Position numbers and translations under genes: made by a program
In this document: positions 9,187 through 27,589 of the stretch, piece after piece
How the letters are laid out: the number at the start of each line of letters is the position of its first letter
Numbering within the stretch: the first letter of the stretch is position 1
The notes under the pieces: model-generated
What the model saw: the letters and a program-made list of their open reading frames with translations, nothing else
Database searches by the model: none
What the model was told of the DNA's origin: nothing
Origin: Kaistia hirudinis
Lineage (GTDB): Bacteria > Pseudomonadota > Alphaproteobacteria > Rhizobiales > Kaistiaceae
Direction: 5' to 3'
DNA length: 64,000 bases
NCBI RefSeq assembly: GCF_014196455.1
Contig: NZ_JACIDS010000004.1
Coordinates: forward strand, 248,001 to 312,000

Positions 9187-9882
9187 TCAAACGGTGAGGT
9201 GAGCGCGTACCGATTCGGAGCCCATTTCGGCCTGGGTGCCGGAAGCGACGATTTCGCCGCGATCCATCACGGCGAAGGTGTCGGCCAGTTCGTGCGCGAA
9301 ATCGAAATATTGCTCGACCAGCAGGATCGCCATCGTTCCCTGCTCGCGCAGCCATTTGATGGCGCGGCCGATATCCTTGATGATCGAGGGCTGGATGCCC
9401 TCGGTCGGCTCGTCGAGCACGAGGAGGCGCGGGCGCGTCACCAGCGCCCGGCCGATCGCCAGTTGCTGCTGCTGGCCGCCCGAAAGGTCGCCGCCGCGCC
9501 GCCCGAGCATGTCCTTCAGCACCGGAAACAGGTCGAAGACATAATCGGGGATGTAGCGGTCCTTCCGCGCGATCGGCGCGTAGCCGGTCTCGAGATTCTC
9601 CTTCACCGTCAGCAGCGGGAAGATCTCGCGCCCCTGCGGCACATAGGCGATGCCGGATTTGGCCCGGTCATAGGAGGGTGAGCGCCCGAGCGGCTTGCCC
9701 TCCCAGATGATCTCGCCGCCGGCGATCGGCTTCTGCCCGACAATGGCGCGCAGCAGACTCGTTTTGCCGACGCCGTTGCGGCCCATGAGGCAGGTCACCT
9801 TGCCCGTCTCGGCCTTGATCGAGACGCCGCGCAGCGCCTGGGCGGCGCCGTAATAGAGATCGACGTTCTTCGCTTCGAGCAT
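9187..9882 (-). CDS. urtE: Urea ABC transporter ATP-binding subunit UrtE
   Basis: A 231-residue LivF-type ATPase with Walker A (GRNGVGKTS, about residues 34-42), GGDLSGGQQQQ signature and Walker B LLVLDEPTEGIQPSI, the UrtE pattern. Last gene of urtABCDE on the minus strand, 3 bases after urtD. Together with UrtD it energises urea uptake through UrtBC. Such operons are usually induced by nitrogen limitation through NtrC; I found no clear sigma-54 promoter here, while a two-component system is encoded next to urtA. Confidence 0.95.
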   Translation of the reverse strand: MLEAKNVDLYYGAAQALRGVSIKAETGKVTCLMGRNGVGKTSLLRAIVGQKPIAGGEIIWEGKPLGRSPSYDRAKSGIAYVPQGREIFPLLTVKENLETGYAPIARKDRYIPDYVFDLFPVLKDMLGRRGGDLSGGQQQQLAIGRALVTRPRLLVLDEPTEGIQPSIIKDIGRAIKWLREQGTMAILLVEQYFDFAHELADTFAVMDRGEIVASGTQAEMGSESVRAHLTV

Positions 9883-9885: not shown

Positions 9886-10656
9886 TCAGCGCCCCAGATA
9901 GACTTCGATGACGGTCGGATCGGCGGAGACGTGATCGAGCGTGCCTTCGGAGAGCACGGAGCCCTGGTGCAGCACGGTCACCTTGACGTCCAGCTCGCGC
10001 ACGAAATGCATGTCGTGCTCGACCACGACGACGGACTTGGTCTTGGCAATCTCGCGCAGCAGCGCCGCCGTCTCCATCGTCTCGGCATCGGTCATGCCGG
10101 CGACCGGCTCGTCGACGAGGAGGAGTTGCGGCTCCTGCGCGAGCAGCATGCCGATCTCCAGCCATTGCTTCTGGCCATGCGAGAGATTGGCGGCGAGCCA
10201 GTCCTTCTTGTCGGTCAGGCGGATGGTGGCGAGGATCTCCTCGATGCGGGCGATTTCCTTTGCGCTCGTCCGATGGAACAGCGTCGCGAAGGGCTTGCGC
10301 ACGCCGGCGAGCGCGAGGTCGATATTGTTCCAGACCGTGTGGCTCTCGAACACGGTCGGTTTCTGGAACTTGCGGCCGATTCCGAGCGAGGCGATCGAGG
10401 CCTCGTCCATGCGCGTCAGATCGGTCGTGCCGGCGAAATAGACGTCGCCTTCGTCCGGCTTGGTCTTGCCGGTGATGACGTCCATCATCGTCGTCTTGCC
10501 GGCGCCGTTCGGACCGATGATGGCGCGCATCTCGCCCGGCTCGATCACCAGCGACAGGGCGTTCAGCGCCTTGAACCCGTCGAAGGAAACCGAGACGCCG
10601 TCGAGATAGAGCAGCGAGTTCTTCGCCTTCTCGTGGCTCTTTTCCGGTGCGCTCAT
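9886..10656 (-). CDS. urtD: Urea ABC transporter ATP-binding subunit UrtD
   Basis: A 256-residue LivG-type ATPase: Walker A GPNGAGKTT, the LSHGQKQWLEIGM signature variant typical of UrtD, and Walker B LLLVDEPVAGM. Its start codon overlaps the urtC stop by 4 bases (ATGA), and it is separated from urtE by 3 bases. It forms the ATPase pair with UrtE at the inner membrane. Confidence 0.95.
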   Translation of the reverse strand: MSAPEKSHEKAKNSLLYLDGVSVSFDGFKALNALSLVIEPGEMRAIIGPNGAGKTTMMDVITGKTKPDEGDVYFAGTTDLTRMDEASIASLGIGRKFQKPTVFESHTVWNNIDLALAGVRKPFATLFHRTSAKEIARIEEILATIRLTDKKDWLAANLSHGQKQWLEIGMLLAQEPQLLLVDEPVAGMTDAETMETAALLREIAKTKSVVVVEHDMHFVRELDVKVTVLHQGSVLSEGTLDHVSADPTVIEVYLGR

Positions 10657-11813
10657 GCTCCTTCCTCCGCAGCCTGACTGGCCTCGATCGGCGACAGCGC
10701 CCCCGGCGCCTTGGTTTCGTCCGGCTTCTTGCGGGCCCGCGCCATCAGCGTGCCGACCACGCCCTTGGGCAGGAACAGCGTGACGGCGATGAACAGGCCG
10801 CCGAGGACGAAGAGCCAGTATTCGGCAAGCACGCCGCTCGTGAACCAGGTCTTGCCGAAGTTCACGAGCAGCGCGCCGACGATCGGGCCGATCAGTGTGC
10901 CGCGCCCCCCGACGGCGACCCAGATGACCGCCTCGATCGAATTGGCGGGGGCGAATTCGCCCGGATTGATGATGCCGATCTGCGGCACGTAGAGCGATCC
11001 GGCGACGCCGGCCATCATGGCGGAGAGCACGAAGACGAACAGCTTGTAGCCCTCGACGCGGTAGCCGATGAAGCGGGTGCGGCTCTCGGCGTCGCGGACC
11101 GCGATCAGCACCTTGCCGAACTTCGACGCGATGACGGCGCGGCAGATCAGGAAGCCGAGCGCGAGCGCGAAGGCCGAGGCGAAGAACAGCACGCCGCGCG
11201 TTTCCGGCGCCTGGATGTTGAAGCCGAGAATGTCCTTGAAGTCGGTCAGGCCGTTATTGCCGCCGAAACCCATGTCGTTGCGGAAGAAGGCGAGCAGCAG
11301 CGCATAGGTCATCGCCTGGGTGATGATCGAGAGATAGACGCCGGTGACGCGCGAGCGGAAGGCGAACCAGCCGAAGACGAAGGCGAGCAGCCCCGGCACC
11401 AGCAGCACCATGATGGCAGCGAACCAGAACATGTCGAAGCCGTGCCAGAACCAGGGCAGCTTGGTCCAGTTCAGGAAGACCATGAAATCGGGCAGGATCG
11501 GATTGGCATAGACGCCGCGCGTTCCGATCTGGCGCATCAGATACATGCCCATGGCGTAGCCGCCGAGCGCGAAGAAGGCGGCGTGGCCGAGCGAGAGGAT
11601 GCCGCAATAGCCCCAGACGAGATCCACGGAGAGGGCGAGCAGCGCGTAGCACAGATATTTGCCGACCAGCGCGACGACATAGGTCGGCACATGGAGCGGG
11701 AAGGACGGGTCGGTCAGGCTGAGGAGCGGCAGCGCGATGCCGATGCCGAGGAGCACGGCCAGCACCGCCCAGGTCTTGCCGTCGAGCGCGCGGAAGAAGA
11801 AGGCGGTGATCAT
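10653..11813 (-). CDS. urtC: Urea ABC transporter permease UrtC
   Basis: LivM-type permease of 386 residues with about nine membrane segments. Conserved stretches include DLVWGYCGILSLGHAAFFALGGYAMGMYL and WVAVGGRGTLIGPIVGALLVN. The frame is open further upstream through a repeat element, but MITAFFFRALDGKTW at 11813 fits the usual N-terminus. It overlaps urtD by 4 bases. The 235 bases before it, up to urtB, hold a palindromic repeat. Confidence 0.93.
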   Translation of the reverse strand: MITAFFFRALDGKTWAVLAVLLGIGIALPLLSLTDPSFPLHVPTYVVALVGKYLCYALLALSVDLVWGYCGILSLGHAAFFALGGYAMGMYLMRQIGTRGVYANPILPDFMVFLNWTKLPWFWHGFDMFWFAAIMVLLVPGLLAFVFGWFAFRSRVTGVYLSIITQAMTYALLLAFFRNDMGFGGNNGLTDFKDILGFNIQAPETRGVLFFASAFALALGFLICRAVIASKFGKVLIAVRDAESRTRFIGYRVEGYKLFVFVLSAMMAGVAGSLYVPQIGIINPGEFAPANSIEAVIWVAVGGRGTLIGPIVGALLVNFGKTWFTSGVLAEYWLFVLGGLFIAVTLFLPKGVVGTLMARARKKPDETKAPGALSPIEASQAAEEGA

Positions 11814-11876
11814 GACGTCGCCTTTTGCTGCAATGTTTCGTCGGCTCTTTTGCCGTGACAGTGCGCTGCCCCGGTG

Positions 11877-11992
11877 GCCCCCCTCCCGGCCTCCCCCACA
11901 AGGGGGGAGGAGAAGGAAGAGCATGCGGCATCGATGACGTGCGAGGCCCACCCTCTCCCCCCTTGTGGGGGAGAGCCGGAGAGGGGGGCCGA
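11877..11992. repeat. Palindromic repeat family A, copy 1 (urtB-urtC gap)
   Basis: A composite palindromic element of about 116 bases. One end has an inverted pair around CCTCCCCC-ACAAGG-GGGGAGG, the other a pair around CTCTCCCC-CCTTGT-GGGGGAGAG, followed by a GGAGAGGGGGGC tail. It shares this right-hand module almost base for base with the copy at 21075-21205. It fills most of the gap between urtB and urtC, two co-directional genes. Confidence 0.75.
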
Positions 11993-12048: not shown

Positions 12049-13668
12049 TCAGGCCTCCACCGAGCGGCCCTTCAAGGCGAACAGGCCTCGCGGACGCTTC
12101 TGGATGAACAGGATGATGAAGACGAGCACCAGGATCTTGGCGAGCACCGCGCCGGCATAGGGCTCGAGGAACTTGTTGGCGATGCCGAGCGTGAAGGCGC
12201 CGACCAGCGTGCCCCAGAGATTGCCGACGCCGCCGAACACCACGACCATGAAGCTGTCGATGATGTAGCTCTGGCCGAGATTCGGGCTGACATTGTCGAT
12301 CTGGCTGAGCGCCACGCCGGCAATGCCCGCAATGCCGGAGCCGAGGCCGAAAGTCAGCGCGTCGACCAGCGGCGTGCGGATGCCCATGGAAGAGGCCATC
12401 GGCCGGTTGGCGGTCACGGCGCGGGTCTGCAGGCCGAAGGGCGTGCGCTTCAGCACCAGCATGAGCACCGCGAAAACGCCGAGCGCGAAGACCACGATCC
12501 ACATGCGGTTATAGGTGATCGCGATATTGCCGAGGTCGAAGGCGCCGGACATCCAGGAAGGGTTGCCGACCTCGCGGTTGTTGGGGCCGAAATAGGTGCG
12601 CACCGCCTGCTGCAGGATCAGCGAGATGCCCCAAGTGGCGAGCAGCGTCTCGAGCGGGCGGCCATAGAGGAAGCGGATGACCGAGCGCTCGATCAGCACG
12701 CCGACCGCGCCGGAGACGAGGAAGGCGAGCGGCAGCGCGATGGCGAGCGACCAGTCGAACAGCTCGGGATAGGAATTGCGGATGATCTCCTGCACGACGA
12801 AGGTCGTGTAGGCGCCGAGCATGACCATCTCGCCATGCGCCATGTTGATGATGCCCATCACGCCGAAGGTGATGGCGAGGCCGATGGCGGCGAGCAGCAG
12901 CACCGAGCCGAGCGAGACGCCGTACCAGATGTTCTGGACGCCTTCCCAGAGCTTGAGCTGGCCCTGGATCGAGGCGACGGCATCGGCGGCGGCGCTCTTC
13001 ACGGCGCCATCCGGTCCGCTCGCGGTCGAGGCGAGCATGGCGAGCGCGTCCTGGTCGGCCCGCGTCGACAGCACCGCGATGGCGGCGATCTTGTCGGCGT
13101 CGCCCATGTCGGATTTCAGCACCGCGGCGGCGCGCGCCTCGGTCATGATCTTCTTGACGCCCGGATCGGTTTCCTTGGCGATCGCCTGGTCGAGCAGGGG
13201 AATCTGCGCCGGGTCGCCGCTCCTGAACACGTCGGCGGCGGCCGAGCGGCGCTGCGCGGGATCGGCGCTCATCAGCGTCAGCGATCCCGTGGCGGAGCGG
13301 ACGAGGCCGCGGATCTTGTTGTTGACCTTGATCTTGGTGACGCCGCTGCGCCCGGCCTCGCCGAGCGCTGCGCCGGTCACCGGGTCGGTGAGCGTGAAGC
13401 CGCTGCCGGATTTCGTTGCCTTGACGACGGCGTTGTCGGACTTGCGCACATAGAGATCGCCATTGGAGAGCGCGTCGAGGACGGGCGCGACCTGCGGATC
13501 GCCGGTCGCGGCGAGATCGCCGATCGCCTTTTCGAGCGCGGCATAGTCGCCCTGGCCGAGCGCATTCACCTGCGCCGTCAGGTCGGCGCCGAAGGCCGGG
13601 CGGAGCACGCCGAACAGTGTCAGCGCGATGATGGCGAGAGCTGCAAGCCGGGAAGGGAACGGGCGCAT
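12049..13668 (-). CDS. urtB: Urea ABC transporter permease UrtB
   Basis: A 539-residue LivH-type permease. Unlike LivH it has an N-terminal signal segment (MRPFPSRLAALAIIALTLFGVLRPAFGA) and about 200 extracytoplasmic residues with HEAT-like helical repeats (DPAQIPLLDQAIAKETDPGVKK and similar) before the membrane domain; this extension is normal for proteobacterial UrtB. The membrane part from about residue 245 shows GVMGIINMAHGEMVMLGAYTTF and TANRPMASSMGI. It sits 132 bases downstream of urtA with a hairpin in the gap. Confidence 0.94.
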   Translation of the reverse strand: MRPFPSRLAALAIIALTLFGVLRPAFGADLTAQVNALGQGDYAALEKAIGDLAATGDPQVAPVLDALSNGDLYVRKSDNAVVKATKSGSGFTLTDPVTGAALGEAGRSGVTKIKVNNKIRGLVRSATGSLTLMSADPAQRRSAAADVFRSGDPAQIPLLDQAIAKETDPGVKKIMTEARAAAVLKSDMGDADKIAAIAVLSTRADQDALAMLASTASGPDGAVKSAAADAVASIQGQLKLWEGVQNIWYGVSLGSVLLLAAIGLAITFGVMGIINMAHGEMVMLGAYTTFVVQEIIRNSYPELFDWSLAIALPLAFLVSGAVGVLIERSVIRFLYGRPLETLLATWGISLILQQAVRTYFGPNNREVGNPSWMSGAFDLGNIAITYNRMWIVVFALGVFAVLMLVLKRTPFGLQTRAVTANRPMASSMGIRTPLVDALTFGLGSGIAGIAGVALSQIDNVSPNLGQSYIIDSFMVVVFGGVGNLWGTLVGAFTLGIANKFLEPYAGAVLAKILVLVFIILFIQKRPRGLFALKGRSVEA

Positions 13669-13800: not shown

Positions 13801-15096
13801 TCAGGAGCCGCCGCACTTTCCGGTCTTGACGTTGAAGTTGCCGCAGGACATCGGGGCGCGCCAATCGGAGATCAGGTCCTTCGAGTCCGGCAGGTAGTCC
13901 GACCACTCGTCGCCGACCACGAGGCCAGGGGTCTGCCAGACGACGTCGAGCTGGCCGTTGTCCTGGATCTCGCCGATATAGACCGGCTTGGTGATGTGGT
14001 GGTTCGGCATGATGGTCGAGAAGCCGCCGGTCAGGTTCGGCACCGAGACGCCGATCAGCGCGTCGATGACGGCGTCGGGCTGCGTCGTGCCGGCCTTCTC
14101 GACAGCGGCGACCCAGGCGTTGAAGCCGATATAGGTGGCTTCCATCGGGTCATTGGTGGTGCGCTTGTCGTTCTTGATGAACGCATGCCACTTCTTGATG
14201 AAGTCCTCGTTCTCCGGCGTGTCGATCGACTGGAAATAGTTCCAGGCGGCGAGATGGCCGACGAGCGGGGCGGTGTCGATGCCGGCGAGCTCTTCCTCAC
14301 CCACCGAGAAGGCCACGACCGGGATGTCCTCGGCCTTGATGCCCTGGTTGCCGAGCTCCTTGTAGAAGGGAACGTTGGCGTCGCCATTGACGGTCGAGAC
14401 GACGGCGGTCTTCTTGCCGGCCGAACCGAACTTCTTGATGGCGGCGACTTCGGTCTGCCAGTCGGAGAAGCCGAACGGCGTGTAGTTGATCATGATGTCC
14501 TCTTCGGCGACGCCCTTCGACTTCAGGTACGCCTCGAGGATCTTGTTGGTCGTGCGCGGATAGACGTAGTCGGTGCCTTCGAGCACCCAGCGCTTCACGG
14601 CGCCGCCTTCCTCGCTCATCAGATAGTCGACGGCCGGGATCGCCTGCTGGTTCGGCGCGGCGCCGGTATAGAACACGTTGCGCTCGCTCTCCTCGCCCTC
14701 GTACTGGACGGGGTAGAAGAGGATCGAGTTCAGCTCCTTGAAGACCGGCAGGACGGACTTGCGGGACACCGAGGTCCAGCAGCCGAACACCACCGAGACC
14801 TTGTCCTGGCTGATCAGCTCGCGCGCCTTCTCGGCGAAGAGCGGCCAGTTGGACGCGGGGTCGACCACGACGGCCTCGAGCTTCTTGCCGAGAACGCCGC
14901 CCTTCTTGTTCTGCTCGTCGATCAGGAAGAGCACCGTATCCTTCAGCGTCGTCTCCGAGATCGCCATCGTGCCCGAGAGCGAGTGCAGAATGCCGACCTT
15001 GATCGTATCGTCCGCGGCAAAGGCGCTCGTCGCGCCGACGGCGATCGTCGCCGCCGTCGCAAGGGCGCCGATTGTCCGGCTCACCTTGTTCAACAT
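13801..15096 (-). CDS. urtA: Urea ABC transporter substrate-binding protein UrtA
   Basis: A 431-residue periplasmic binding protein of the Leu/Ile/Val family (peripla_BP_5). Signal peptide at residues 1-27 (ending AFA-ADD), then the UrtA-type sequence TIKVGILHSLSGTMAISE, GCWTSVSRKSVLPVF and FYPVQYEGEE, and a C-terminus ending GKCGGS. First gene of the operon; its promoter must lie in the 270-base divergent gap up to the sensor kinase gene, which holds a near-perfect palindrome. Confidence 0.95.
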   Translation of the reverse strand: MLNKVSRTIGALATAATIAVGATSAFAADDTIKVGILHSLSGTMAISETTLKDTVLFLIDEQNKKGGVLGKKLEAVVVDPASNWPLFAEKARELISQDKVSVVFGCWTSVSRKSVLPVFKELNSILFYPVQYEGEESERNVFYTGAAPNQQAIPAVDYLMSEEGGAVKRWVLEGTDYVYPRTTNKILEAYLKSKGVAEEDIMINYTPFGFSDWQTEVAAIKKFGSAGKKTAVVSTVNGDANVPFYKELGNQGIKAEDIPVVAFSVGEEELAGIDTAPLVGHLAAWNYFQSIDTPENEDFIKKWHAFIKNDKRTTNDPMEATYIGFNAWVAAVEKAGTTQPDAVIDALIGVSVPNLTGGFSTIMPNHHITKPVYIGEIQDNGQLDVVWQTPGLVVGDEWSDYLPDSKDLISDWRAPMSCGNFNVKTGKCGGS

Positions 15097-15252: not shown

Positions 15253-15268
15253 TACGTCGAACGACGTA
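15253..15268. promoter_or_regulatory. Palindrome TACGTCG-AA-CGACGTA, candidate response-regulator operator
   Basis: A perfect 7-bp inverted repeat with a 2-base centre, in the divergent gap between urtA (157 bases away) and the sensor kinase (99 bases from the GTG used here). Size and symmetry fit a site for a LuxR/NarL-type dimer, and such a regulator is encoded at 18797-19720. It is the most symmetric sequence I noticed in this gap. The link is inference. Confidence 0.55.
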
Positions 15269-15366: not shown

Positions 15367-18300
15367 GTGAGCAGGGGAACTTTGGCCGGGCGCCAGCGCA
15401 TCCTTCCGGTGCGCCGGGAATATAACCGCTGGGTGGCCAACCAGACGCTGGAAGACTATGCGCTCCGCTTCACGGCGAAGAGCGCCCGGCGCTGGTCGTC
15501 GCCGCGCGTCGCGCAGACGGCGATCGGCGCCATCTCGTTCCTGGCGCTGGAGGCGATCGGCGGCACGATCACGCTGTCGCATGGCACGGTCAACGTCATC
15601 GCGGCGACGTTCGTCGTCGGCGTGGTGCTACTGCTCACCGGCCTGCCGATCGCGCGCTATGCCGCGCGCTATGGCGTCGACATCGATCTCCTCACCCGCG
15701 GCGCGGGCTTCGGCTATATCGGCTCGACGATCACCTCGCTGATCTACGCCACCTTCACCTTCATCCTGTTCGCCATCGAAGCCTCGATCATGACGACGGC
15801 GCTCGAAATGGCGTTCGGCGTCCCGATCTGGCTCGGCTATGTGCTGTCGGCGGCCGCGGTGATCCCGCTCGTCACGCATGGCATCACCTGGATCAGCCGG
15901 TTCCAGATCGCCACGCAGCCGCTCTGGATCATCCTCAACATCCTGCCCGTCGGCTTCATCCTGTGGCAGGACGGCGGCTCGGTCTCCGACTGGCTGAACT
16001 TCCCCGGCCTCGCGCCGGCGGCGAGCGGGTCGAGCCTCGACCTCGTCGCCTTCGGCGCGTCCTGCTCGGTCATTCTCGGGCTGATGCCGCAGATCGGGGA
16101 GCAGGTCGACATTCTCCGTTTCGTGCCGCCGGCCGGGCCGCGCGGCTGGCGCGACCGCCTCGCCATGCTGCTCGCCGGCGCGGGCTGGATCATCGTCGGC
16201 GCGCCGAAAATGCTGTTCGGCTCCTTCCTCGCGGTGCTGGCGCTGCGCCACGCCGTGCCGGCCGAGCATGCCGCCGAGCCGGCGCGCATGTATGCCGTCG
16301 CCTTCGGCTATGTGCTGCCCTGGCCCGATGCGGTGCTGTTTCTCACCGCCGCCTTCGTGGTGGTGTCGCAGCTCAAGATCAATGTGATGAACGCCTATGC
16401 GGGCTCGCTCGCCTGGTCGAACTTCTTCTCCCGCCTGACGCACAGCCATCCGGGCCGCGTCGTCTGGCTGGTGTTCAACGTCGCGATCGCGCTGCTCCTG
16501 ATGGAGCTCGGCATCTATCGCGCGCTCGAACAGACGCTCGGCCTGTTCTCGGTCGTCGCCGTCGCCTGGCTCGGCACAATCGTCGCCGACCTCGCCATCA
16601 ACAAGCCGCTCGGCCTCTCGCCGCCGGGCATCGAGTTCAAGCGCGCCCATCTCTACGACATCAACCCGGTCGGCGTCGGCTCCATGGGCATCGCGGCCGC
16701 GATCTCGCTCATTGCCGCCGTCGGTCTCCTCGGCGAGACGGCGAAGGCGCTGGCGCCCTTCATCGCGCTCGGCCTCGCGCTCGTCGTCGCCCCGGCGATC
16801 GCCTGGGCGACCGGCGGGCGCTACTACCTCGCCCGCAAGCCGCGCGCCCACTGGATGGAGCGGACCGAGATCCAGTGCACGGTCTGCGAGCATTTCTTCG
16901 AGCCGGAGGACAGCGCCTATTGCCCGGCCTATTCCGGGCCGATCTGCTCGCTCTGCTGCTCGCTCGATGCGCGCTGCCACGACCTCTGCAAGCCGCACGC
17001 AAGGCTGCAGGTGCAGGTCGGCGAGGCCGTGTCGGCCGTGCTGCCGAAGCGGCTGGCGGTGAAGATCAGCCCGCGTATCATCCAGTATTTCGGTATCCTG
17101 ACGCTGTTCATGGGCGTCATCAGCATCGTGCTGCTGCTGATCCACGTCCAGGCGACCTCCTATGGCGGGGCGCATAGCGCCATCATCGGCCAGACGCTCT
17201 GGGCCGCGTTCTTCATCCTGTTGATCGTCTCCGGCATCGCGTCGTGGTTCCTCGTGCTGGCCAATGAGAGCCGCCACGTCGCGCAGGAGGAATCGGCCCG
17301 CCAGACGACGCTGCTGCTCAAGGAGATCAGCGCGCATCAGAGGACCGATGCCGAGCTGCAGCGCGCCAAGGAGGCGGCCGAGGCGGCGAACCTCGCCAAG
17401 AGCCGCTACCTCGTCGGCCTCTCGCACGAGCTGCGCACGCCGCTTAACGCCGTGTTCGGTTATGCGCAGATCCTGGAGCGCGACGAGGCGATCCCGCGCG
17501 CGCGGCGGGGCAATATCTCGGTCATCCGCCGTAGCGCCGAGCATCTCTCCGGCCTGATCGACGGGCTGCTGGAAATCTCGCGCATCGAGGCCGGGCGGTT
17601 GCGGCTGCAGCGCGACGAGGTGCGGCTCGACGATTTCCTCGACCAGATCGTCGACATGTTCCGTTTCCAGGCCGAGGCGAAGGGGCTCGCCTTCCGCTTC
17701 GAGCGGCCGGAGCGGCTGCCCGAGGTCGTTGCGACCGACGAGAAGCGGCTGCGCCAGATCCTCGTCAACCTCTTGTCGAACGCGATCAAATTCACCGAGA
17801 GCGGCGTCGTCACGCTGCGGATCGCCTATCGCAGCCAGATCGCGACCATCACGGTCGACGATACCGGGCCGGGCATCTCCGTGGAGGATCTCGATCGCAT
17901 CTTCGAGCCGTTCGAGCGTGGCACCAGCGCCGCCGCCAAGATGACGCCCGGCACCGGGCTCGGCCTCACCATCACCAAGATGCTGGCCCAACTCATGGGG
18001 GGCGACCTGACCGTCACCAGCGAGGTCGGAATCGGCAGCCGCTTCAATGTCCGTGTGATGCTCGCCGCCATCGACCGGCCGACGCCGTCGCCGGCCCTGC
18101 CGAAGCGGATCTTCGGCTATGAGGGGCCGCGCCGGACGATCCTCGTCGTCGACGACGACGAAGATCACCGCGATCTCGTGCGGCAGATGCTGGAACCGCT
18201 CGGCTTCATCGTGCTCGCCATGCCGGATGGCCCGTCGAGCCTCGCGCTCGCCGCCGACATCCGGCCGGACCTGTTTCTGCTCGACATCTCCATGCCCGGC

Positions 18301-18804
18301 ATGACGGGTTGGGAGCTCGCGGTGCGGCTGCGGGAGGCCGGGCACAGCGCGCCGATCCTGATGGTATCGGCCAATATCGGCGAGATGCAGCCCGAGCGGG
18401 CGGAGGATGCGGTCCATGACGGGGCGCTGCCGAAGCCCTTCGACATGCGCCAGCTGCTCGACCGCATCAAGGCGCTGCTGCGCCTCGAATGGACCGACGA
18501 GGCCGCGGCGCCCCCCAAGGTCGAGGCGGAGGCCGATGCGATCCGCAGTCCGGGGGCGGACCATGTGCGTCAGCTTCTCGATCTCGGCGCGATCGGCTAT
18601 GTCCGGGGCATCGAAGCCAAGCTCGCGGAGCTCGACGGCGTGGCCGGCAACCAGGCCTTCGTCGCCATGCTGCGCGGCCATGTGCGCAGCTTCGATTTCG
18701 GCGGCTATACCGCCGCGCTGGAGCAGTTGATTTCGGAACCCACGGACGCCGGGCGCATGAACGCCGATACGACTGACAGGGAAGCGACGCACGCCAATGG
18801 CTGA
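15367..18804 (+). CDS. NCS1-transporter-like/hybrid sensor histidine kinase fusion
   Basis: A 1145-residue membrane sensor. Residues about 40-490 form a multi-span domain resembling NCS1 (purine/cytosine/allantoin permease) proteins: FLALEAIGGTITLSHG, LLTRGAGFGYIGSTITSL. A cysteine-rich stretch follows (Cys504, 507, 519, 527, 530, 531, 537, 541; CxxC...CxxCC pattern, zinc-ribbon-like), then two more membrane segments, a short coiled coil, a HisKA domain with His687 in LSHELRTPLN, an HATPase_c domain (NLLSNAIKF, DDTGPGIS, GTGLGL) and a receiver domain with Asp973 in LLDISMPG. The start is uncertain: GTG at 15298 is also in frame; GTG 15367 was chosen for a nearby AGGCAGG and because the conserved region begins about VRREYNRWVANQTLEDYALRF. 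Next to urt, it probably senses a nitrogen compound. Confidence 0.85.
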   Translation: MSRGTLAGRQRILPVRREYNRWVANQTLEDYALRFTAKSARRWSSPRVAQTAIGAISFLALEAIGGTITLSHGTVNVIAATFVVGVVLLLTGLPIARYAARYGVDIDLLTRGAGFGYIGSTITSLIYATFTFILFAIEASIMTTALEMAFGVPIWLGYVLSAAAVIPLVTHGITWISRFQIATQPLWIILNILPVGFILWQDGGSVSDWLNFPGLAPAASGSSLDLVAFGASCSVILGLMPQIGEQVDILRFVPPAGPRGWRDRLAMLLAGAGWIIVGAPKMLFGSFLAVLALRHAVPAEHAAEPARMYAVAFGYVLPWPDAVLFLTAAFVVVSQLKINVMNAYAGSLAWSNFFSRLTHSHPGRVVWLVFNVAIALLLMELGIYRALEQTLGLFSVVAVAWLGTIVADLAINKPLGLSPPGIEFKRAHLYDINPVGVGSMGIAAAISLIAAVGLLGETAKALAPFIALGLALVVAPAIAWATGGRYYLARKPRAHWMERTEIQCTVCEHFFEPEDSAYCPAYSGPICSLCCSLDARCHDLCKPHARLQVQVGEAVSAVLPKRLAVKISPRIIQYFGILTLFMGVISIVLLLIHVQATSYGGAHSAIIGQTLWAAFFILLIVSGIASWFLVLANESRHVAQEESARQTTLLLKEISAHQRTDAELQRAKEAAEAANLAKSRYLVGLSHELRTPLNAVFGYAQILERDEAIPRARRGNISVIRRSAEHLSGLIDGLLEISRIEAGRLRLQRDEVRLDDFLDQIVDMFRFQAEAKGLAFRFERPERLPEVVATDEKRLRQILVNLLSNAIKFTESGVVTLRIAYRSQIATITVDDTGPGISVEDLDRIFEPFERGTSAAAKMTPGTGLGLTITKMLAQLMGGDLTVTSEVGIGSRFNVRVMLAAIDRPTPSPALPKRIFGYEGPRRTILVVDDDEDHRDLVRQMLEPLGFIVLAMPDGPSSLALAADIRPDLFLLDISMPGMTGWELAVRLREAGHSAPILMVSANIGEMQPERAEDAVHDGALPKPFDMRQLLDRIKALLRLEWTDEAAAPPKVEAEADAIRSPGADHVRQLLDLGAIGYVRGIEAKLAELDGVAGNQAFVAMLRGHVRSFDFGGYTAALEQLISEPTDAGRMNADTTDREATHANG

Positions 18805-19720
18805 GGTTTCGCGCGCCCGCGACATCGTCCTCGTGGTGGACGATTCGCCCGAGACGCTGAGCTTTCTGACCGATGCGCTGGAGCATTCGGGCGCCACCGT
18901 GCTCGTCGCGACCGAAGGCGCGCGTGCGCTGGCCCTCGTCGAGCGCATCACGCCCGACATCATCCTGATGGACGCGGTCATGCCGGGCATGGACGGTTTC
19001 GAGACCTGCCGGCGGCTCAAGGCCAATGCCGGGCTTTCCCATGTGCCGATCATCTTCATGACCGGTCTCTCCGAGACCGAGCACATTCTGGAGGGCCTCG
19101 AAGCCGGGGGCGTCGACTATGTGACGAAGCCGATCGTGCTCGACGTGCTGCTCGCCCGGATCCGCGTCCATCTCGCCAATGCCCGCACCGCGCAGAGCGC
19201 GCGCATGGCGCTCGATACGGCCGGACGCTATCTGCTCGCCGCCAATCGGGCCGGCGCGATCCTTTGGTGCACGCCGCAGGCGGCAAAGCTGCTGGAGGCG
19301 GCGCTGCCCAACGAGGGCGGCACGATCCACCTGCCGGAGGCGGTGCGCGTGTGGCTCAAGGTTTCCGCCGGCCAGCGCGGCGCTGTCTCGCCGCCGACGC
19401 CGATCACCGTCGAGGGCGGCCGTCAGCTGCAGCTCTCCTTCCTCGGCAGGACGGGCGAGGACGAGTTCCTCTTCCGCCTGACGGCCGATGACGAGAGCGG
19501 CCACGAGGCGGCGCTTCGCCGCCAGTTCGCGGTCACGCAGCGCGAGGCGGAGGTGCTCCTGTGGATCGCGCGCGGCAAATCCAACCGCGACATCGGCGAA
19601 ATCCTCGGCCTCTCGCCCCGCACGGTGAACAAGCACCTGGAAACGATCTACCAGAAGCTCGGTGTCGAAAACCGGGCCTCGGCGGCCATCGTGGCGCTCT
19701 CGGCGATCGGGGAGCGATAG
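18797..19720 (+). CDS. Response regulator, receiver plus LuxR-type HTH
   Basis: A 307-residue regulator overlapping the sensor gene by 8 bases, so surely its partner. Receiver domain at residues 10-125 with phospho-acceptor Asp59 (LMDAVMPGMDG) and Lys in YVTKPI; a middle segment about 130-225 (GRYLLAANRAGAILWCTPQA...) that looks PAS-like; a C-terminal LuxR/NarL HTH at about 240-300 (VTQREAEVLLWIARGKSNRDIGEILGLSPRTVNKHLETIYQKLGVENR). It presumably controls the divergent urt operon or genes for nitrogen-compound use; the palindrome at 15253-15268 is a candidate site. Confidence 0.9.
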   Translation: MAEVSRARDIVLVVDDSPETLSFLTDALEHSGATVLVATEGARALALVERITPDIILMDAVMPGMDGFETCRRLKANAGLSHVPIIFMTGLSETEHILEGLEAGGVDYVTKPIVLDVLLARIRVHLANARTAQSARMALDTAGRYLLAANRAGAILWCTPQAAKLLEAALPNEGGTIHLPEAVRVWLKVSAGQRGAVSPPTPITVEGGRQLQLSFLGRTGEDEFLFRLTADDESGHEAALRRQFAVTQREAEVLLWIARGKSNRDIGEILGLSPRTVNKHLETIYQKLGVENRASAAIVALSAIGER

Positions 19721-19774: not shown

Positions 19775-21049
19775 CTAGAGCCTGTCCCTGAGCGCATACC
19801 AGCTCATGCCGGCCACCAGCGCCGGCCAGCGCAGCAGCTTGCCGCCGGGGAAGCGGGGGCAGGGGAGGGCGGCGAAGGCGTCGAGGCGGCCGGGATCGCC
19901 GAGGATGGCGTCGGCAATGATCTTGCCGCCATAGGGGGCGAGCGCCACGCCCTGGCCCGAATAGCCCGACGCGGCATAGACGCCGGTTCTGAGGCGGCGA
20001 AGGAAGGGCAGCCGCTTGACGGTGACGGCGAGCGTGCCGCCCCAGGCATGGTCGATGCGGACATCGCGGAGGCCCGGATAGATCTTCAGGAGATGTCGGC
20101 GCACGAAGGCGGTGATGTCGGCCGGGTCGCGCCGCGAATAGGTCTCGCCGCCGCCGAAGAGGATGCGGCCGTCGCCCGTGGGGCGCCAGTAATAGACCAC
20201 GAAGCGCGAATCCGAGACCGCCTCGCCGCCGGGAATGAGGCCGCCGGGCTGGCCGGCGCCGATCGGCGCCGTGGTCAGGATGTAGTTCTTGATCGGCATG
20301 GCGCGGGTCTCGGTCTCCGCGTCGATGCCGTCGAGCAGGCCGTTGCCGGCGAGCACGACGATATCGGCCCGGATGCGGCCGCGCGCCGTCTCGATCGTCG
20401 GCGTCGCGCCATCCACGAGACGGATCGCCGGTGTGTGCTCATGCAGGCGGGCGCCGGCCTTGGCGGCGGCGCGGGCGAGTCCCTGCGCGAATTTCAGCGG
20501 ATGCAGATGCCCCGCTGTGCGATCGAGCCGGCCGCCGAAATAGTCCTTGGTGCCGATCATCGCGGCGAGGCGGTCGGGCTCGACCCATTCGGCGTGCGGA
20601 TAGCCATATTCGGTGTTGAGCTTGTCGACATAGTGCCGTTCCTCGTCGACGAGACGGGGCTTATGCACGGCCTCGATCAGCCCCGGCCGCCATTCGGCGT
20701 CGATGCCGTGCCTGTCGATCAGCGTGTGGACGAGCGCCTTCGCCTCCTCGGCGAGGGTGAACAACTCATGCGCGGCCGGGCGCCCCAACTGGCGTTCGAG
20801 CCAGTCCTGATCGCGGCGCTGGCCGGTATGGAGCTGGCCGCCATTGCGACCCGAAGCGCCCCAGCCGATCGCCTTCGCTTCGATCAGCACGGTGTCGATT
20901 CCGGCCTCGGCCAGATGCAGCGCGGCGGAAAGGCCTGTGAAGCCGCCGCCGATGATCGCCACATGCGCGGTCGTATCGCCGTCGAGCGGAGGAAAGGCGA
21001 GCGCGCGATCCGCCGTCGCCTCGTACCAGGAGGGCGGCCGGTCGGTCAT
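19775..21049 (-). CDS. puuB: FAD-dependent oxidoreductase, gamma-glutamylputrescine oxidase type
   Basis: A 424-residue DAO-family flavoenzyme. The ADP-binding motif is at the N-terminus (HVAIIGGGFTGLSAALHLAEAG), followed by GWGASGRNGGQLHTGQR, the segment around the FAD linkage seen in PuuB/OrdL proteins, and a C-terminal ASGYSGQGVALAPYGGK. PuuB oxidises gamma-glutamylputrescine to the aldehyde with H2O2 release. The neighbouring aminotransferase and PuuA-like ligase and the divergent putrescine transporter support this role. The symbol is a family and context assignment. Confidence 0.8.
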   Translation of the reverse strand: MTDRPPSWYEATADRALAFPPLDGDTTAHVAIIGGGFTGLSAALHLAEAGIDTVLIEAKAIGWGASGRNGGQLHTGQRRDQDWLERQLGRPAAHELFTLAEEAKALVHTLIDRHGIDAEWRPGLIEAVHKPRLVDEERHYVDKLNTEYGYPHAEWVEPDRLAAMIGTKDYFGGRLDRTAGHLHPLKFAQGLARAAAKAGARLHEHTPAIRLVDGATPTIETARGRIRADIVVLAGNGLLDGIDAETETRAMPIKNYILTTAPIGAGQPGGLIPGGEAVSDSRFVVYYWRPTGDGRILFGGGETYSRRDPADITAFVRRHLLKIYPGLRDVRIDHAWGGTLAVTVKRLPFLRRLRTGVYAASGYSGQGVALAPYGGKIIADAILGDPGRLDAFAALPCPRFPGGKLLRWPALVAGMSWYALRDRL

Positions 21050-21074
21050 GCTGCGACGTCGATAACGGTTGTGG

Positions 21075-21205
21075 CGCGCCCTCTCCCCCCTTGTGGGGGA
21101 GAGCTGGAGAGGGGGGCGCTTGCCGGACGACGGAACTGTCCTGCGACGATTTCCCGGTGTCGAGAGGGGCCCCCCTCCCTAGCCCTCCCCAAGGGGGGAG
21201 GGGAC
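21075..21205. repeat. Palindromic repeat family A, copy 2 (puuB-aminotransferase gap)
   Basis: About 131 bases filling most of the 178-base gap between two minus-strand genes. It begins with a CTCTCCCC-CCTTGT-GGGGGAGAG palindrome nearly identical to the right module of copy 1 and ends with CCTCCC..CTCCCC-AAGG-GGGGAG. Confidence 0.75.
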
Positions 21206-21227
21206 AGGACGGAGCCACGCCCCCCCA

Positions 21228-22616
21228 TCACGCGACCAGTCCCAGCCGCTTCACCTCGGCGAGCGTGTCGTCGAGCGTCTTCTTCGCCGTCGCCGCCAGA
21301 ATGTCCGCTTCCTCATGGGTCAGCGTCAGCGGCGGCGCGAGGATCAGGGAGTCGCGCACCGCGCGCATCACGAGGCCGTTGCGGAACGAGAAATCGCGCG
21401 CGATCGTGCCGACCTTGCCGGTATCGGGGAAGGCATGCGCCCGCGATGGCTTGTTCGGCACCAGTTCGAGCGCGCCCATCAGGCCGGTCATGCGCGCCTC
21501 GCCGACGAGGGGATGATCGCCGAGCGCCAGCCAGAGCTTCTGCAGATACGGCCCGATATCGTCCCGGACCCGATCGACGAGCTTTTCTTCCTCGATGATG
21601 CGGAGGTTTTCGAGCGCCGCGGCGGCCGTGAGCGGATGGGCGGAATAGGTGAAGCCGTGGTGGAATTCGCCGCCCGGCCCGATCAGCACGTCGGCGACCT
21701 TGTCCGAGACCATGACGCCGCCGATCGGCAGATAGCCGGAGGAGAGCCCCTTGGCGATTGGCATCAGGTCGGCTTCGATGCCGAAGGTCTGCGACCCGAA
21801 CCAGTTGCCGGTGCGGCCGAAGCCGGTGATGACCTCGTCGGCGACGAGCAGGATCTCGCGGCCCCTCAGGATGCGCGCGATCTCCGGCCAATAGCTGGCG
21901 GGCGGGATGATCACGCCGCCGGCACCCTGGATCGGCTCGGCGACGAAGGCTGCGATGTTCTCCTCGCCGAGTTCCTCGATCGCTGTTTCCAGTTCCCGCG
22001 CCGCCTGGATGCCGAATTCCTCGGGCGTCGCCTCGCCGCCTTCGCCGAACCAATAGGGCTGGGCGATGTGGTGGATGCCGGGGATCGGCAGCCCGCCCTG
22101 CGAATGGATCGGCGCCATGCCGCCGAGGCTGCCGCCGCCCATGGTCGAGCCGTGATAGGCGTTCTTGCGGGCGATCAGCACGGTCTTCTTCGGCTTGCCG
22201 AGGGTCGCCCAATAATGCCGCACCATCCGGATGACGGTGTCGTTGGCCTCGGAGCCTGAGCCGCAGAAGAAGACATGGTTGAACTGCGGCGGAGAAAGAC
22301 GGGCCAGCGCCTCCGCGAGGGCGACCGCCGGCGGGTGGGTCGTCTTGAAGAAGGTGTTATAATACGAGATCTCGGCCATCTGCCGCTGGATCGCCGCGGC
22401 GATCTCCGGCCGGCCATGCCCGATATTGACGCACCACAGACCCGACATGCCATCGAGGATACGGTTACCGTCGCTGTCCCAAATCCAGGCACCCTCGCCC
22501 CGCACGATGACGCGGCTGCCCTCCGCGTTCAGGGACTTCATGTCCGAGAACGGATGGATGTGATGCGCCGCGTCGCGGGCGCGATAGTCGGCGGTGGCGT
22601 TGGAGAGAGAGGTCAC
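21228..22616 (-). CDS. Class III aminotransferase (putrescine/omega-amino acid type)
   Basis: A 462-residue PLP-dependent aminotransferase. Visible features are the cofactor region LVADEVITGFGRTG, the Schiff-base Lys289 in MPIAKGLSSGYLPIGG and the N-terminal HPFSDM / MSGLWCVNIGHGRPE typical of SpuC-like putrescine:pyruvate and beta-alanine:pyruvate aminotransferases. It sits between the PuuB-like oxidase and the PuuA-like ligase on the same strand, so it probably transaminates putrescine, gamma-glutamylputrescine or the GABA formed later. Which of these cannot be decided from sequence. Confidence 0.85.
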   Translation of the reverse strand: MTSLSNATADYRARDAAHHIHPFSDMKSLNAEGSRVIVRGEGAWIWDSDGNRILDGMSGLWCVNIGHGRPEIAAAIQRQMAEISYYNTFFKTTHPPAVALAEALARLSPPQFNHVFFCGSGSEANDTVIRMVRHYWATLGKPKKTVLIARKNAYHGSTMGGGSLGGMAPIHSQGGLPIPGIHHIAQPYWFGEGGEATPEEFGIQAARELETAIEELGEENIAAFVAEPIQGAGGVIIPPASYWPEIARILRGREILLVADEVITGFGRTGNWFGSQTFGIEADLMPIAKGLSSGYLPIGGVMVSDKVADVLIGPGGEFHHGFTYSAHPLTAAAALENLRIIEEEKLVDRVRDDIGPYLQKLWLALGDHPLVGEARMTGLMGALELVPNKPSRAHAFPDTGKVGTIARDFSFRNGLVMRAVRDSLILAPPLTLTHEEADILAATAKKTLDDTLAEVKRLGLVA

Positions 22617-22695
22617 TCGATCGGTCCTGATCCCGGCGCGGCGGAGGCGTTCGCCCGCAGTTTCGCCAATGGCGGCCTGCGGGCGAAATCCGGCG

Positions 22696-24096
22696 CTAGA
22701 CGTTGAGCAGCAGGTATTCGCGCTCCCAGGGGCTGATCACCTGCATGAAGGTCTCGTATTCGGCCTGCTTGATTGCCCGATAGGTCGAGACGAAGCGCTT
22801 GCCGAAGATCTCGACGAGCTCCTCGCAGTCCTCGAACAGCGAAACCGCCTCGAGGATACTGCGTGGCAGGTCGATTTCGTCCGAATTGGCGGATCCCGTG
22901 ACCGGCTCTCCCGGCTTCAGACCTTCCATCAGGCCGAGATAGCCGCAGGCGAGCGAGGCCGCGATGGCGAGATAGGGATTTGCGTCCGACGAGGGCAGCC
23001 GGTTCTCCAGCCGCCGTCCCGCCGGCGAGGAATTCGGTACCCGCAACCCGACGGTCCGGTTGTCGTAGCCCCACTGCGTATTCACCGGCGCCGAAGAAGA
23101 GCGCACGAGACGGCGGTATGAATTGACATAAGGCGCCAGCATGCACATGACGGCCGGAAGATATTTCTGCGATCCGCCGATGAAGGCAAAGAACTCCGGC
23201 GTCGGATCGCCGTCTTCATCGGAGAAGATATTGCGCCCGGTCTCGCGATCCGTCACGGATTGATGGATATGCATGGCCGAGCCCGGCTCGCGCGACATGG
23301 GCTTTGCCATGAAGGTCGCGTACATATCATGCCGGAGCGCGGCCTCGCGAATGGTGCGCTTGAACAGGAAGACCTGGTCGGCGAGGATCAGCGGATCGCC
23401 GTGCAGGAGATTGATCTCCATCTGCGCGGCGCCTTCCTCGTGGATCAGCGTGTCGATCTCCAGACCCTGCTGCTCCGAGAAATCATAAATGTCGTCAAAG
23501 AGATCGTCGAACTCGTTGATCGCCGCGATCGAATAGGACTGCCGCGCCGCCTCGGGCCGTCCCGAACGCCCGGTCGGCGGCTCGAGCTGGTAATCCGGAT
23601 CGTGGTTCGGCCTGACGAGATAGAACTCGATCTCCGGCGCCACCACCGGGTTCCAGCCTTGATGGTGATAGAGCTCCACCATGCGGCGCAAAACCTGGCG
23701 CGGCGCCGTCTCGACCGGCCGACCGTCGCGGTGATAGCCGTCATGAATCAGCTGCGCGGTCGGATCGCCTTCCCAGGGCACGACGGTCAGCGTCGAGAAG
23801 TCCGGCTCGAACAGGATGTCCTGATCCGCGACGTCGCTCTGATAGTCCGCGTCGTCATCGGGATAGTCGCCCGTGATCGTCTGGGTCAGGATCGAACCCG
23901 GCATCGACATCGTCGGGCCGGCCAGGAACTTGGACACCGGCATCATCTTGCCGCGCGCCACGCCGGCCTGATCCGGCACGACGCACTCAATGTCCTCGAT
24001 CCCGCGATGCTTCAGCCACTCGCGGGCTTCTTCCAGCGAAGCCACGCCACGCCTGGCATCCTCGCGCGGTTTGAGCGGCTTCTTCCGCTTGTTCAC
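22696..24096 (-). CDS. puuA: Glutamine synthetase family, gamma-glutamylputrescine synthetase type
   Basis: A 466-residue ligase of the PuuA branch: it joins glutamate and putrescine using ATP. Features include an N-terminal beta-grasp (GIEDIECVVPDQAGVARGKMMPVSKF), the metal and ATP motifs APEIEFYLV, EEGAAQMEINLLHGD, HIHQSV and the C-terminal NRLPSSDANPYLAIAASLACG. The start is GTG 24096, directly behind AGGAGG; an ORF continues 177 bases upstream but would lack family similarity and enter the divergent promoter region. First gene of the minus-strand putrescine set, divergent from potF. Confidence 0.88.
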   Translation of the reverse strand: MNKRKKPLKPREDARRGVASLEEAREWLKHRGIEDIECVVPDQAGVARGKMMPVSKFLAGPTMSMPGSILTQTITGDYPDDDADYQSDVADQDILFEPDFSTLTVVPWEGDPTAQLIHDGYHRDGRPVETAPRQVLRRMVELYHHQGWNPVVAPEIEFYLVRPNHDPDYQLEPPTGRSGRPEAARQSYSIAAINEFDDLFDDIYDFSEQQGLEIDTLIHEEGAAQMEINLLHGDPLILADQVFLFKRTIREAALRHDMYATFMAKPMSREPGSAMHIHQSVTDRETGRNIFSDEDGDPTPEFFAFIGGSQKYLPAVMCMLAPYVNSYRRLVRSSSAPVNTQWGYDNRTVGLRVPNSSPAGRRLENRLPSSDANPYLAIAASLACGYLGLMEGLKPGEPVTGSANSDEIDLPRSILEAVSLFEDCEELVEIFGKRFVSTYRAIKQAEYETFMQVISPWEREYLLLNV

Positions 24097-24206
24097 GATG
24101 CCTCCTGCGGCGTCTCTCCAATGTTCGGGAGGTGACGCCAGGCGGGTTCCGAAGTCAACTGCGCCCGCCTGTGCATAGCCTTTGTCGCAGTGCCGAAGAA
24201 TCGGTT

Positions 24207-24259
24207 GAGCCCCGCCGCAAAGCCACATAACGTTCGAGAAAATCGGGCTGGCGGGGCTC
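24207..24259. promoter_or_regulatory. Inverted repeat in the puuA/potF divergent gap
   Basis: A 10-bp inverted repeat, GAGCCCCGCC (24207-24216) and GGCGGGGCTC (24250-24259), ends 37 bases before potF. It could be a leader hairpin or a regulator site shared by puuA and potF. No further evidence decides between these. Confidence 0.4.
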
Positions 24260-24296
24260 GTCGATCGCCGCATGCGACCATCGGAGGGTGCAGGGA

Positions 24297-25376
24297 ATGA
24301 AGAAGGTTCTTGGCGCGTTGGCCTTGAGCGCCAGCGTCTTGGCGGTTGGTTCCGCTTCCGCGGCCGACAAGGAAGTCCATATCTACAACTGGTCGAACTA
24401 TATCGACGATTCCATCCTCAAGGACTTCGAGAAGGAAACCGGCATCAAGGTCGTCTACGACGTCTACGATGCCATGGAGACGCTCGAAGCCAAGATGTAT
24501 GCCGGCCGCTCGGGCTACGACATCGTCGTTCCCACCGACCGCAACATGCAGCTGATGATCGAGGCCGGCGTCTTCCAGCCGCTCGACAAGTCGAAGATCC
24601 CGAATCTCCAGTACAACTGGCCGGATATCTACAAGCGTCTCGCGACCTATGATCCGGACAACAAATACGCCGTGAACTACATGTGGGGCACGACCGGTCT
24701 CGGCTACGACAAGGCCAAGATCGATGCCCGCATGCCCGACGCCCCCGTCGATTCCATGGACATGATCTTCAAGCCGGAAGTGGCGGCCAAGTTTGCTGAC
24801 TGCGGCATCTACATCCTGAATTCGCCCGAAGACGTGATGCCCGCCGCAATGAACTATCTCGGCATCAATCCGGATTCCAAGAATCCGGAAGACTTCCAGA
24901 AGGCCACCGACCTGCTGACGAAGGTCCGTCCCTATATCCGCAAGTTCGATTCCTCGCTGATCAATCCGCTGGCGACGGGCGAGGCTTGCCTCGTCTTCTC
25001 CTATTCCGGGGACATCCTGCAGGCCAAGGACAGCGCCAAGGCCGGCGTTGACGTCCACTATTCGATCCCGAAGGAAGGCGCGCTGCTGTGGATGGATTCC
25101 ATGGTCGTGCCGAAGGACGCGCCGAACCCCGACGCGGCGTTCGCCTTCATCAACTATATCCAGAAGCCGGAAGTGATCGCCAAGGCGACGAACTTCGTGA
25201 AATACCCCAATGGCAATCTCGAATCGCAGAAATATGTCGATCCGACGATCCTGAAGGACCCGACGATCTACCCGCTGCCCGAGACGTTCGCGCATCTCTA
25301 TACGACGACGCCGAATCCCGAGGACGTTCAGGACAAGATGACCGATCTCTGGCAGAAGGTGCTTGCGGCGCAGTAA
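24297..25376 (+). CDS. potF: Putrescine ABC transporter substrate-binding protein
   Basis: A 359-residue periplasmic binding protein with signal peptide (residues 1-25, ending ASA-ADK) and the PotD/PotF core: VHIYNWSNYIDDSILKDFEKETGIKVVYDVYD, YDIVVPTDRNMQLMI, and WGTTGLGYD. The ATG at 24297 follows GGAGGG. Followed by potG, potH and potI. PotF (putrescine) is preferred to PotD (spermidine) because of the adjacent puu genes. A hairpin follows the gene. Confidence 0.92.
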   Translation: MKKVLGALALSASVLAVGSASAADKEVHIYNWSNYIDDSILKDFEKETGIKVVYDVYDAMETLEAKMYAGRSGYDIVVPTDRNMQLMIEAGVFQPLDKSKIPNLQYNWPDIYKRLATYDPDNKYAVNYMWGTTGLGYDKAKIDARMPDAPVDSMDMIFKPEVAAKFADCGIYILNSPEDVMPAAMNYLGINPDSKNPEDFQKATDLLTKVRPYIRKFDSSLINPLATGEACLVFSYSGDILQAKDSAKAGVDVHYSIPKEGALLWMDSMVVPKDAPNPDAAFAFINYIQKPEVIAKATNFVKYPNGNLESQKYVDPTILKDPTIYPLPETFAHLYTTTPNPEDVQDKMTDLWQKVLAAQ

Positions 25377-25395
25377 GCGGCTTGTGTTGATCGCG

Positions 25396-25422: not shown

Positions 25423-25442
25423 TCCCTCATCCGGCGAAGGGA

Positions 25443-26600: not shown

Positions 26601-26649
26601 GCCACCGGCAACGACAGGCGAGGGCGGACGGGCGAGGGAACCAAACGAC

Positions 26650-27579: not shown

Positions 27580-27589
27580 GGATCGGTCG

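Follow-up and report, generated by a model that had tools for sequence, protein, structure and literature searches.

How does a histidine kinase whose input domain is built like a permease come to lie beside the genes of a urea transporter, and what would it sense there? The question is raised by a stretch of 64,000 nucleotides of Kaistia hirudinis (Rhizobiales, Pseudomonadota; contig NZ_JACIDS010000004.1, positions 248,001 to 312,000), analysed as a whole, renumbered from 1 and called the window below, in which a single gene encodes a transporter-like membrane domain joined to a hybrid sensor kinase, is followed by the gene of a LuxR-type regulator and diverges from urtABCDE. From the gene linkage of homologous loci and a palindrome that recurs in front of them, we consider it likely that kinase and regulator form a two-component system sensing urea or short-chain amides, with the regulator binding the palindrome and controlling urt as well as its own operon; in this genome the ligand would most likely be urea. 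The elements of this system are as follows (homologous loci elsewhere are designated by L and a number):

15253..15268, no strand: palindrome TACGTC-N4-GACGTA (spacer GAAC) in the region between the divergent urtA and kinase genes; candidate operator
15367..18804, plus strand: hybrid sensor kinase with an NCS1-type sensor; 1145 amino acids from GTG 15367, probably 1140 from TTG 15382
15445..16806, plus strand: membrane domain resembling NCS1 permeases, about residues 27-480; hydropathy fits 12 helices; relatives pass PF02133
16876..16989, plus strand: eight-cysteine (Cys8) module, residues 504-541, CxxC-x11-C-x7-C-x2-CC-x5-C-x3-C; predicted to be cytosolic
17092..17256, plus strand: two additional helices, at residues 576-593 and 609-630, by hydropathy
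17398..18060, plus strand: HisKA (678-743) and HATPase_c (790-898), by Pfam
18139..18471, plus strand: receiver domain Response_reg (925-1035), by Pfam
18797..19720, plus strand: LuxR-type response regulator with Response_reg (11-123) and GerE/LuxR (247-300), by Pfam; overlaps the kinase gene by 8 bases (18797-18804)

The kinase, its membrane domain and its cysteine module

The frame from 15367 to 18804 was intact, with 1145 residues counted from GTG and no internal stop. Several homologues begin [M/V]-A-[G/A]-R-Q-R-I, and for this reason TTG 15382, which is preceded by AGGGGA, is probably the true start. The original prediction had placed a membrane domain, a cysteine cluster, two more helices, HisKA/HATPase and a receiver in one 1145-residue frame, with a LuxR-type partner overlapping it by 8 bases; both the coordinates and the domains were confirmed, as was the overlap from the open reading frame (ORF) coordinates. 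A sequencing frameshift joining two genes, which it had named as one of three findings that would overturn it, was ruled out by the presence of the same fusion in many separate genomes; the other two, cysteines that vary and homologues away from urt or purine genes, did not apply either, both the cysteines and the linkage being conserved. The phospho-acceptor His of HisKA was kept in 166/166 kinases and the receiver Asp in all 162 alignment rows that have a residue there (7 further rows are gapped), so that the protein, with HATPase_c between the two, has the complete set of a hybrid histidine kinase. The regulator, with its receiver and GerE helix-turn-helix, is of the LuxR/NarL type, and adjoins the kinase in homologous loci with few exceptions. 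Behind the receiver lies a conserved helical tail with a GYxxG-like motif (18472-18804, residues 1036-1145); screened for the conserved His of an Hpt domain, it had its best column with His in 85 sequences, which is not conserved. Neither an SSS (SLC5) nor a STAC domain was found in the kinase by Pfam at E ≤1.

The assignment of the membrane domain to the NCS1 family rests on its relatives. PF02133, the Pfam model of NCS1, had no match in the window protein nor in the other 19 members of the sensor alignment A1 (20 in all). The A1 profile matched a set of four stand-alone NCS1-type proteins with a profile-profile probability of 99.7 (E 4e-27, columns 23-514), and one of these four, L077, passes PF02133 (29.3 bits against a cut-off of 23.5). 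Likewise, the window sensor is 43% identical to a stand-alone permease of Acinetobacter over residues 17-534, and a Klebsiella stand-alone permease, itself 75% identical to the Acinetobacter one, passes the same model with 38.1 bits against 23.5, with further stand-alone kin (L164, L167, L302 and L304) falling below the cut-off. The original proposal, in which a hybrid kinase carries a transporter domain of NCS1 type, is thus upheld through the stand-alone relatives, although PF02133 itself misses the window protein. With NCS1 permeases in general the sensor shares a membrane domain whose hydropathy fits 12 helices, and kin that pass the Pfam cut-off; its subfamily differs from them in the Cys tail, the urea and amide genes that surround it and the fusion to a kinase. 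Hydropathy averaged over the homologues fits 12 helices, the Cys module and then two helices, some merged peaks having been split by eye, and Arg/Lys-rich stretches before helix 1 and just ahead of the Cys module suggest that the region preceding helix 1 and the module are both cytosolic. Invariant stretches of the sensor half lie around residues 55-66, 123-137, 242-252 and 334-347. When the sequences of solved structures were searched with three profiles, one each for the sensor (A1), for the stand-alone NCS1 proteins (A2) and for Cys8 (A4), no template emerged that was convincing.

The eight cysteines of the module (504, 507, 519, 527, 530, 531, 537 and 541), in which the original prediction had seen a CxxC...CxxCC cluster, were all conserved in 166/166 kinases, the window protein included; this count took the window and 168 of 173 homologous loci (169 rows), the other three rows being stand-alone permeases. 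When a 53-column profile of the module was run against 398 genomes of the phylum, 57 matches in 52 genomes were obtained and all 57 lay inside sensor-profile matches, and therefore Cys8 is not a common zinc ribbon within those genomes. Pfam returned weak matches to CRIPT, Prok-RING_1 and zf-RING_10 (E 0.14-0.26, in 1-3 of 23 members) and the solved-structure search weak ribbon- or RING-like ones. The module is also present on stand-alone permeases, as a 4-Cys tail in Acinetobacter, Klebsiella, Moraxella and Streptomyces and as the full 8-Cys tail in Methylovirgula (in Arthrobacter and Tsukamurella it is largely lost), which argues that the Cys module travels with the permease and not with the kinase. 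The tree was compatible with either order of origin of the fused and the free form.

Linkage to urea and short-chain-amide genes

Sensor matches were found in 48 of 199 genomes of the order, 45 of them strong and kinase-type, and in 52 of the 398 genomes of the phylum sample. The 173 homologous loci that we examined come from sets that may overlap in species, and all counts are therefore counts of loci, not of independent events; the 80 named loci are the best by score of at least 594 and hence biased to near kin. At an identity of at least 45%, a urea or short-chain-amide marker (urtA, urtA-like, ureA, ureC, fmdA, amiE or amiS) was present in 164 of the 173 loci and in none of 20 control loci, which were fixed round positions (500,000, 1,000,000, 1,500,000 and 2,000,000) on long contigs rather than a random draw. 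Chance linkage to such genes is thereby ruled out, and the link to urt on which the original prediction was built holds, with the extension that some loci carry amide genes instead. Four of the nine marker-less loci (L076, L156, L157 and L230) lie on contigs of 4.8-5.9 kb, the contig of L126 ends ~820 bp upstream, and L077, L078 and L233 are distant stand-alone NCS1 proteins, leaving one real exception, L119.

The neighbouring genes were of four kinds: true urt; an urt-like transporter with FmdA/FmdB/AmiE; urease genes with no transporter in the stretch; and FmdA with an AmiS/UreI-type gene, where the kinase is shorter, lacks the receiver and has a regulator of another type (Paracoccus; L073-L075 and L222, placed here by frame length and neighbours). 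Gene names in L137, L151, L155 and L299, which come without annotation, were assigned by inspecting the translations or by a BLAST comparison with genes of known name. Sensor and amide genes thus stay together even where the kinase and regulator types differ. The divergent partner was UrtA or UrtA-like in 146 of 155 loci, and the linkage was found outside the order as well as in the four kinase-bearing plasmid records that were read. On a tree of sensors thinned to 108 rows, without L077 and L233 (another alignment comparison was made without L157), the urea/amide label required 5 changes against about 36 for shuffled labels, which argues that the linkage is not one frozen inherited neighbourhood. 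A second, urt-like transporter linked to amidase genes is noted for B. japonicum in a passage of an earlier paper (PMC3098086).

In the window the transporter genes are the following:

13801..15096, minus strand: urtA, urea-binding protein, divergent from the kinase gene
12049..13668, minus strand: urtB, permease
10653..11951, minus strand: urtC, permease (ORF limits; start uncertain)
9886..10656, minus strand: urtD, ATPase
9187..9882, minus strand: urtE, ATPase

Window UrtA passes TIGR03407, the model of urea UrtA, with 551 bits against 492.75, and the K. hirudinis genome has urease genes elsewhere, with ureC in two places. The same model also accepts the two amide-linked UrtA-like proteins that were tried (L137 and L163) and does not separate the two kinds, so that automatic annotation can label amide transporters as urea transporters. 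Since the second kind of regulon is one of short-chain amides (formamidase FmdA, FmdB, AmiE, AmiS), urea or a short-chain amide is a likelier common signal than the purine- or allantoin-derived urea precursor first proposed, a part of the original prediction that found no support; no purine-catabolism gene was recognised by annotation or by eye in the neighbourhoods read, where no search was aimed at them.

The stand-alone relatives point the same way. Six of the eight that were read adjoin urease (Acinetobacter johnsonii, Klebsiella), the formamidase gene fmdA (Moraxella, Tsukamurella) or aliphatic amidase genes (Arthrobacter, and Methylovirgula, whose cluster also holds a kinase homologue). 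The permease of Acinetobacter baumannii is divergent from a kinase, with no other urea or amide gene seen in the stretch, and that of Streptomyces had no such gene in the neighbourhood read. Those of the eight that have an annotation are named allantoin permease, cytosine permease or hypothetical protein, and the first two names look like misannotations, because their bearers adjoin urease or formamidase genes. We infer that urea and small amides are the solutes of this subfamily, and that what the permease cousins carry is also what the kinase senses; proteins filed as ATP-binding protein, hybrid sensor kinase, allantoin permease or cytosine permease may accordingly include urea or amide sensors and permeases. 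The urease-adjoining proteins L300 5956-7563 and L164 5663-7270, annotated as cytosine/allantoin permease, are candidate urea permeases. The distant stand-alone proteins L077 (6922-8565), L078 and L233 are 25-27% identical, two of them with a 4-Cys tail, and all three lie near a UrtA-like binding protein (28-32%).

A palindrome between urtA and the kinase gene

Between urtA and the kinase ORF lie 270 bp, which contain TACGTCGAACGACGTA (15253-15268), a 6-4-6 inverted repeat with a single exact occurrence in the whole genome of 5.26 Mb. Sites agreeing with it at 10 or more of its 12 repeat positions were present in 45 of 46 intergenic regions of the true-urt class, where base shuffling predicts 0.3, and in 17 of 68 regions of the urt-like class (0.5 expected). 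This count clipped some UrtA-like regions, in which the reference ORF began too far upstream, and it was repeated with wider regions: within 420 bp of the kinase, sites of this quality were present in only 29 of 61 'urt' rows against 0.7 expected, in part because urtA often lies 1-8 kb away. When the DNA ahead of both the kinase and its divergent partner was taken as regulatory, sites with 11/12 or 12/12 positions numbered 94 in 70,114 bp of such DNA and 10 in 3,031,076 bp elsewhere, a density ~400-fold higher. Seven of these ten lie 72-159 bp upstream of an fmdA start in the same cluster, two fall in the urtA-kinase region once a better urtA match is used, and one (L058) is unexplained. By locus, a site of 11/12 or better was present in 91 of 155, made up of 43/54 with UrtA and 48/92 with UrtA-like as the divergent partner, the choice between these two classes being sometimes wrong.

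Presence of the exact palindrome also follows presence of the kinase, with a copy in 27 of 45 kinase-bearing genomes and in 7 of the 154 others of the order (Fisher p = 2.6e-15). The kinase genomes hold 28 copies in all: 23 are no more than 600 bp from the kinase match, two are 3.4-3.5 kb from it (L038 and L039), where urtA starts in those loci, and three are elsewhere. In L119 the lone kinase carries an 11/12 copy, and the best urtA match of that genome (85%), on another contig, has a perfect palindrome ~120 bp upstream. In loci of the Bradyrhizobium type, and in a second clade of the order, the palindrome takes variant forms with TACG-N8-CGTA as their core. Sigma-70 and sigma-54 patterns sought in the divergent region yielded nothing usable.

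Proposed mechanism, its rivals and known systems

From the observed architecture, conservation, linkage and palindrome-kinase association we propose the following chain of events. Urea, or a short-chain amide, would be bound by the NCS1 domain, which may or may not also transport it, and the conformational change would reach the HisKA dimer by way of the cytosolic Cys8 module, probably a zinc knuckle with two zinc ions and a structural role, and of the helix pair behind it. Phosphate would pass from His687 to Asp973 of the receiver and/or to the LuxR-type regulator, and the phosphorylated regulator would bind TACGTC-N4-GACGTA at 15253-15268 and switch the divergent urtABCDE together with its own kinase-regulator operon, presumably by activation. 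Consistent with this reading, should Methylophilus possess the kinase, its fmd cluster is described in a passage of a review as induced by formamide and urea (PMC10781810).

Several observations weigh against this proposal. No 11/12 site was found in the regulatory regions of 64 of the 155 loci, among them all nine whose nearest divergent partner is ureA or fmdA; the urease-alone and fmdA-amiS classes have no such palindrome in these regions, and the operator there therefore differs or has no candidate yet. The exact palindrome is absent from 18 of the 45 kinase genomes, and its variants were seen in some clades and not in others. A comparison of urea-linked with amide-linked sensors (four urea clades) gave only conservative or impure columns. 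None of them tells the two groups of NCS1 domains apart convincingly, so that no ligand-specific pocket emerged: either the pocket is a generalist, or the NCS1 domain may not be what decides the ligand. It is also possible that fusions of this design do not sense through their membrane domain, because the SLC5 domain of CbrA is described, in the part of the source available, as not essential for signal perception (PMC9100948). General nitrogen control of urt may also operate alongside.

A serious rival, which we hold to be possible but clearly less probable, keeps the same ligand and operator and differs in the place and mode of sensing: the NCS1 domain would be a working urea or amide transporter and the signal would be read inside the cell, as flux, cytosolic ligand, or nitrogen or redox state via Cys8, a view that has been argued for CbrA. 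The transporter-like stretches that are invariant in the fused forms fit this, as do stand-alone relatives that look like permeases beside urease, and CbrA, in the excerpts at hand, takes up histidine although its SLC5 domain is reported to be dispensable for perception. A second importer seems redundant, on the other hand, where an Urt or Urt-like transporter is already the divergent partner, and some loci without Urt have a stand-alone permease or an AmiS/UreI-type gene. That Cys8 is instead the primary sensor, of zinc, nickel or redox state, with the NCS1 domain as its anchor, is unlikely: urease requires nickel, the eight cysteines are absolutely conserved and the zinc-ribbon gene fmdB occurs in many amide clusters, but formamidase and amidase regulons offer no reason for nickel sensing and stand-alone permeases carry a 4-Cys or a full 8-Cys tail, so that the module goes with the permease. 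Least probable is a system that responds to compounds derived from purines (allantoin, hydantoin, uracil) and thereby links the production of urea to the control of urt, for although NCS1 members are classically nucleobase or hydantoin permeases and the stand-alone relatives are annotated accordingly, the neighbourhoods read hold urease, formamidase, aliphatic amidase and AmiS, and the K. hirudinis genome has no PF02133 match at E 0.01, a model that also misses the kinase itself.

The analogy to CbrA-type transporter-kinase fusions drawn in the original prediction was upheld. In the excerpted accounts, the SLC5/STAC kinases CbrA, CrbS and RpuS have, as here, a membrane domain with the fold of a transporter in one protein with a kinase; their partners CrbR and RpuR are of the LuxR type, like the window regulator; and control of nutrient-use genes in these systems needs an inverted repeat or conserved motif, to which the window palindrome would be the candidate counterpart. 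The window protein differs in its NCS1-type sensor and in having Cys8 and two helices instead of STAC/PAS, and the system in its urea/amide regulon and a different palindrome. Control of urease by UreR is also substrate-responsive, through an AraC-type activator and without a membrane kinase. Amidase control by AmiC/AmiR likewise responds to the substrate of amide catabolism, as proposed here, but employs, as far as described in the part of the paper available, a soluble binding protein with an antiterminator and no membrane kinase; the same paper has an urt-fmdA-amiE cluster in a Pseudomonas, and its main text lacks the terms 'histidine kinase' and 'response regulator' (PMC13209695). The Amt-histidine kinase fusion of Kuenenia also joins a nitrogen-compound transporter domain, as sensor, and a kinase in one polypeptide, and differs in its Amt/Rh fold and its ligand, ammonium, with no Cys8 mentioned in the portion of the text available (PMC5764959).

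Full-text literature searches, whose coverage leaves out most subscription papers, brought up neither an NCS1-kinase fusion nor a comparable urea- or amide-sensing kinase. The locus is real, conserved and coherent; it takes the transporter-kinase design to another transporter family and allows its regulon to be predicted strongly. The kinase is very probably a urea/amide sensor, of a kind so far undescribed in the papers covered. To our knowledge, membrane-level sensing of urea itself by bacteria is little understood, and a candidate receptor, a regulator, an exact candidate operator and a short list of ligands are now available for it. With NCS1 beside SLC5, a second transporter family with an independent coupling module enters the transporter-kinase fusions, so that the conversion of a transport cycle into a signal can be compared across designs. 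A broader proposal, to which we give about equal weight for and against, is that these proteins constitute a new receptor class: a urea/amide subfamily of NCS1 would have been recruited whole as a two-component sensor, coupled by a Cys8 metal module unseen in other proteins and provided with its own operator; the kinases would be a dedicated urea/amide-sensing family spanning alpha-, beta- and gammaproteobacteria, re-tuned repeatedly between urea and amide regulons with the pocket apparently unaltered; and the stand-alone proteins named allantoin or cytosine permease that adjoin urease would make up a new family of urea permeases.

Klebsiella accounts for 342 of the 532 plasmid records with a sensor match. 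On one of its plasmids (L163, Klebsiella variicola, NZ_CP114321.1) the kinase homologue is divergent from urt-like genes and a formamidase gene and has the palindrome in an 11/12 copy. On this plasmid, the one Klebsiella plasmid that was read, transporter and formamidase resemble, as a likeness only, the Klebsiella plasmid 'UTS' urea ABC transporter with AmiF; both papers, as far as available, name the transporter and AmiF, and kinase terms are absent from their main texts (PMC5506382, PMC13060141). Downstream of the regulator in the window, 19775-28411 holds what appears by eye to be a putrescine/polyamine-use cluster, composed of an FAD oxidoreductase, an aminotransferase, a glutamine-synthetase-like ligase, a periplasmic binding protein, an ATPase and two permeases.

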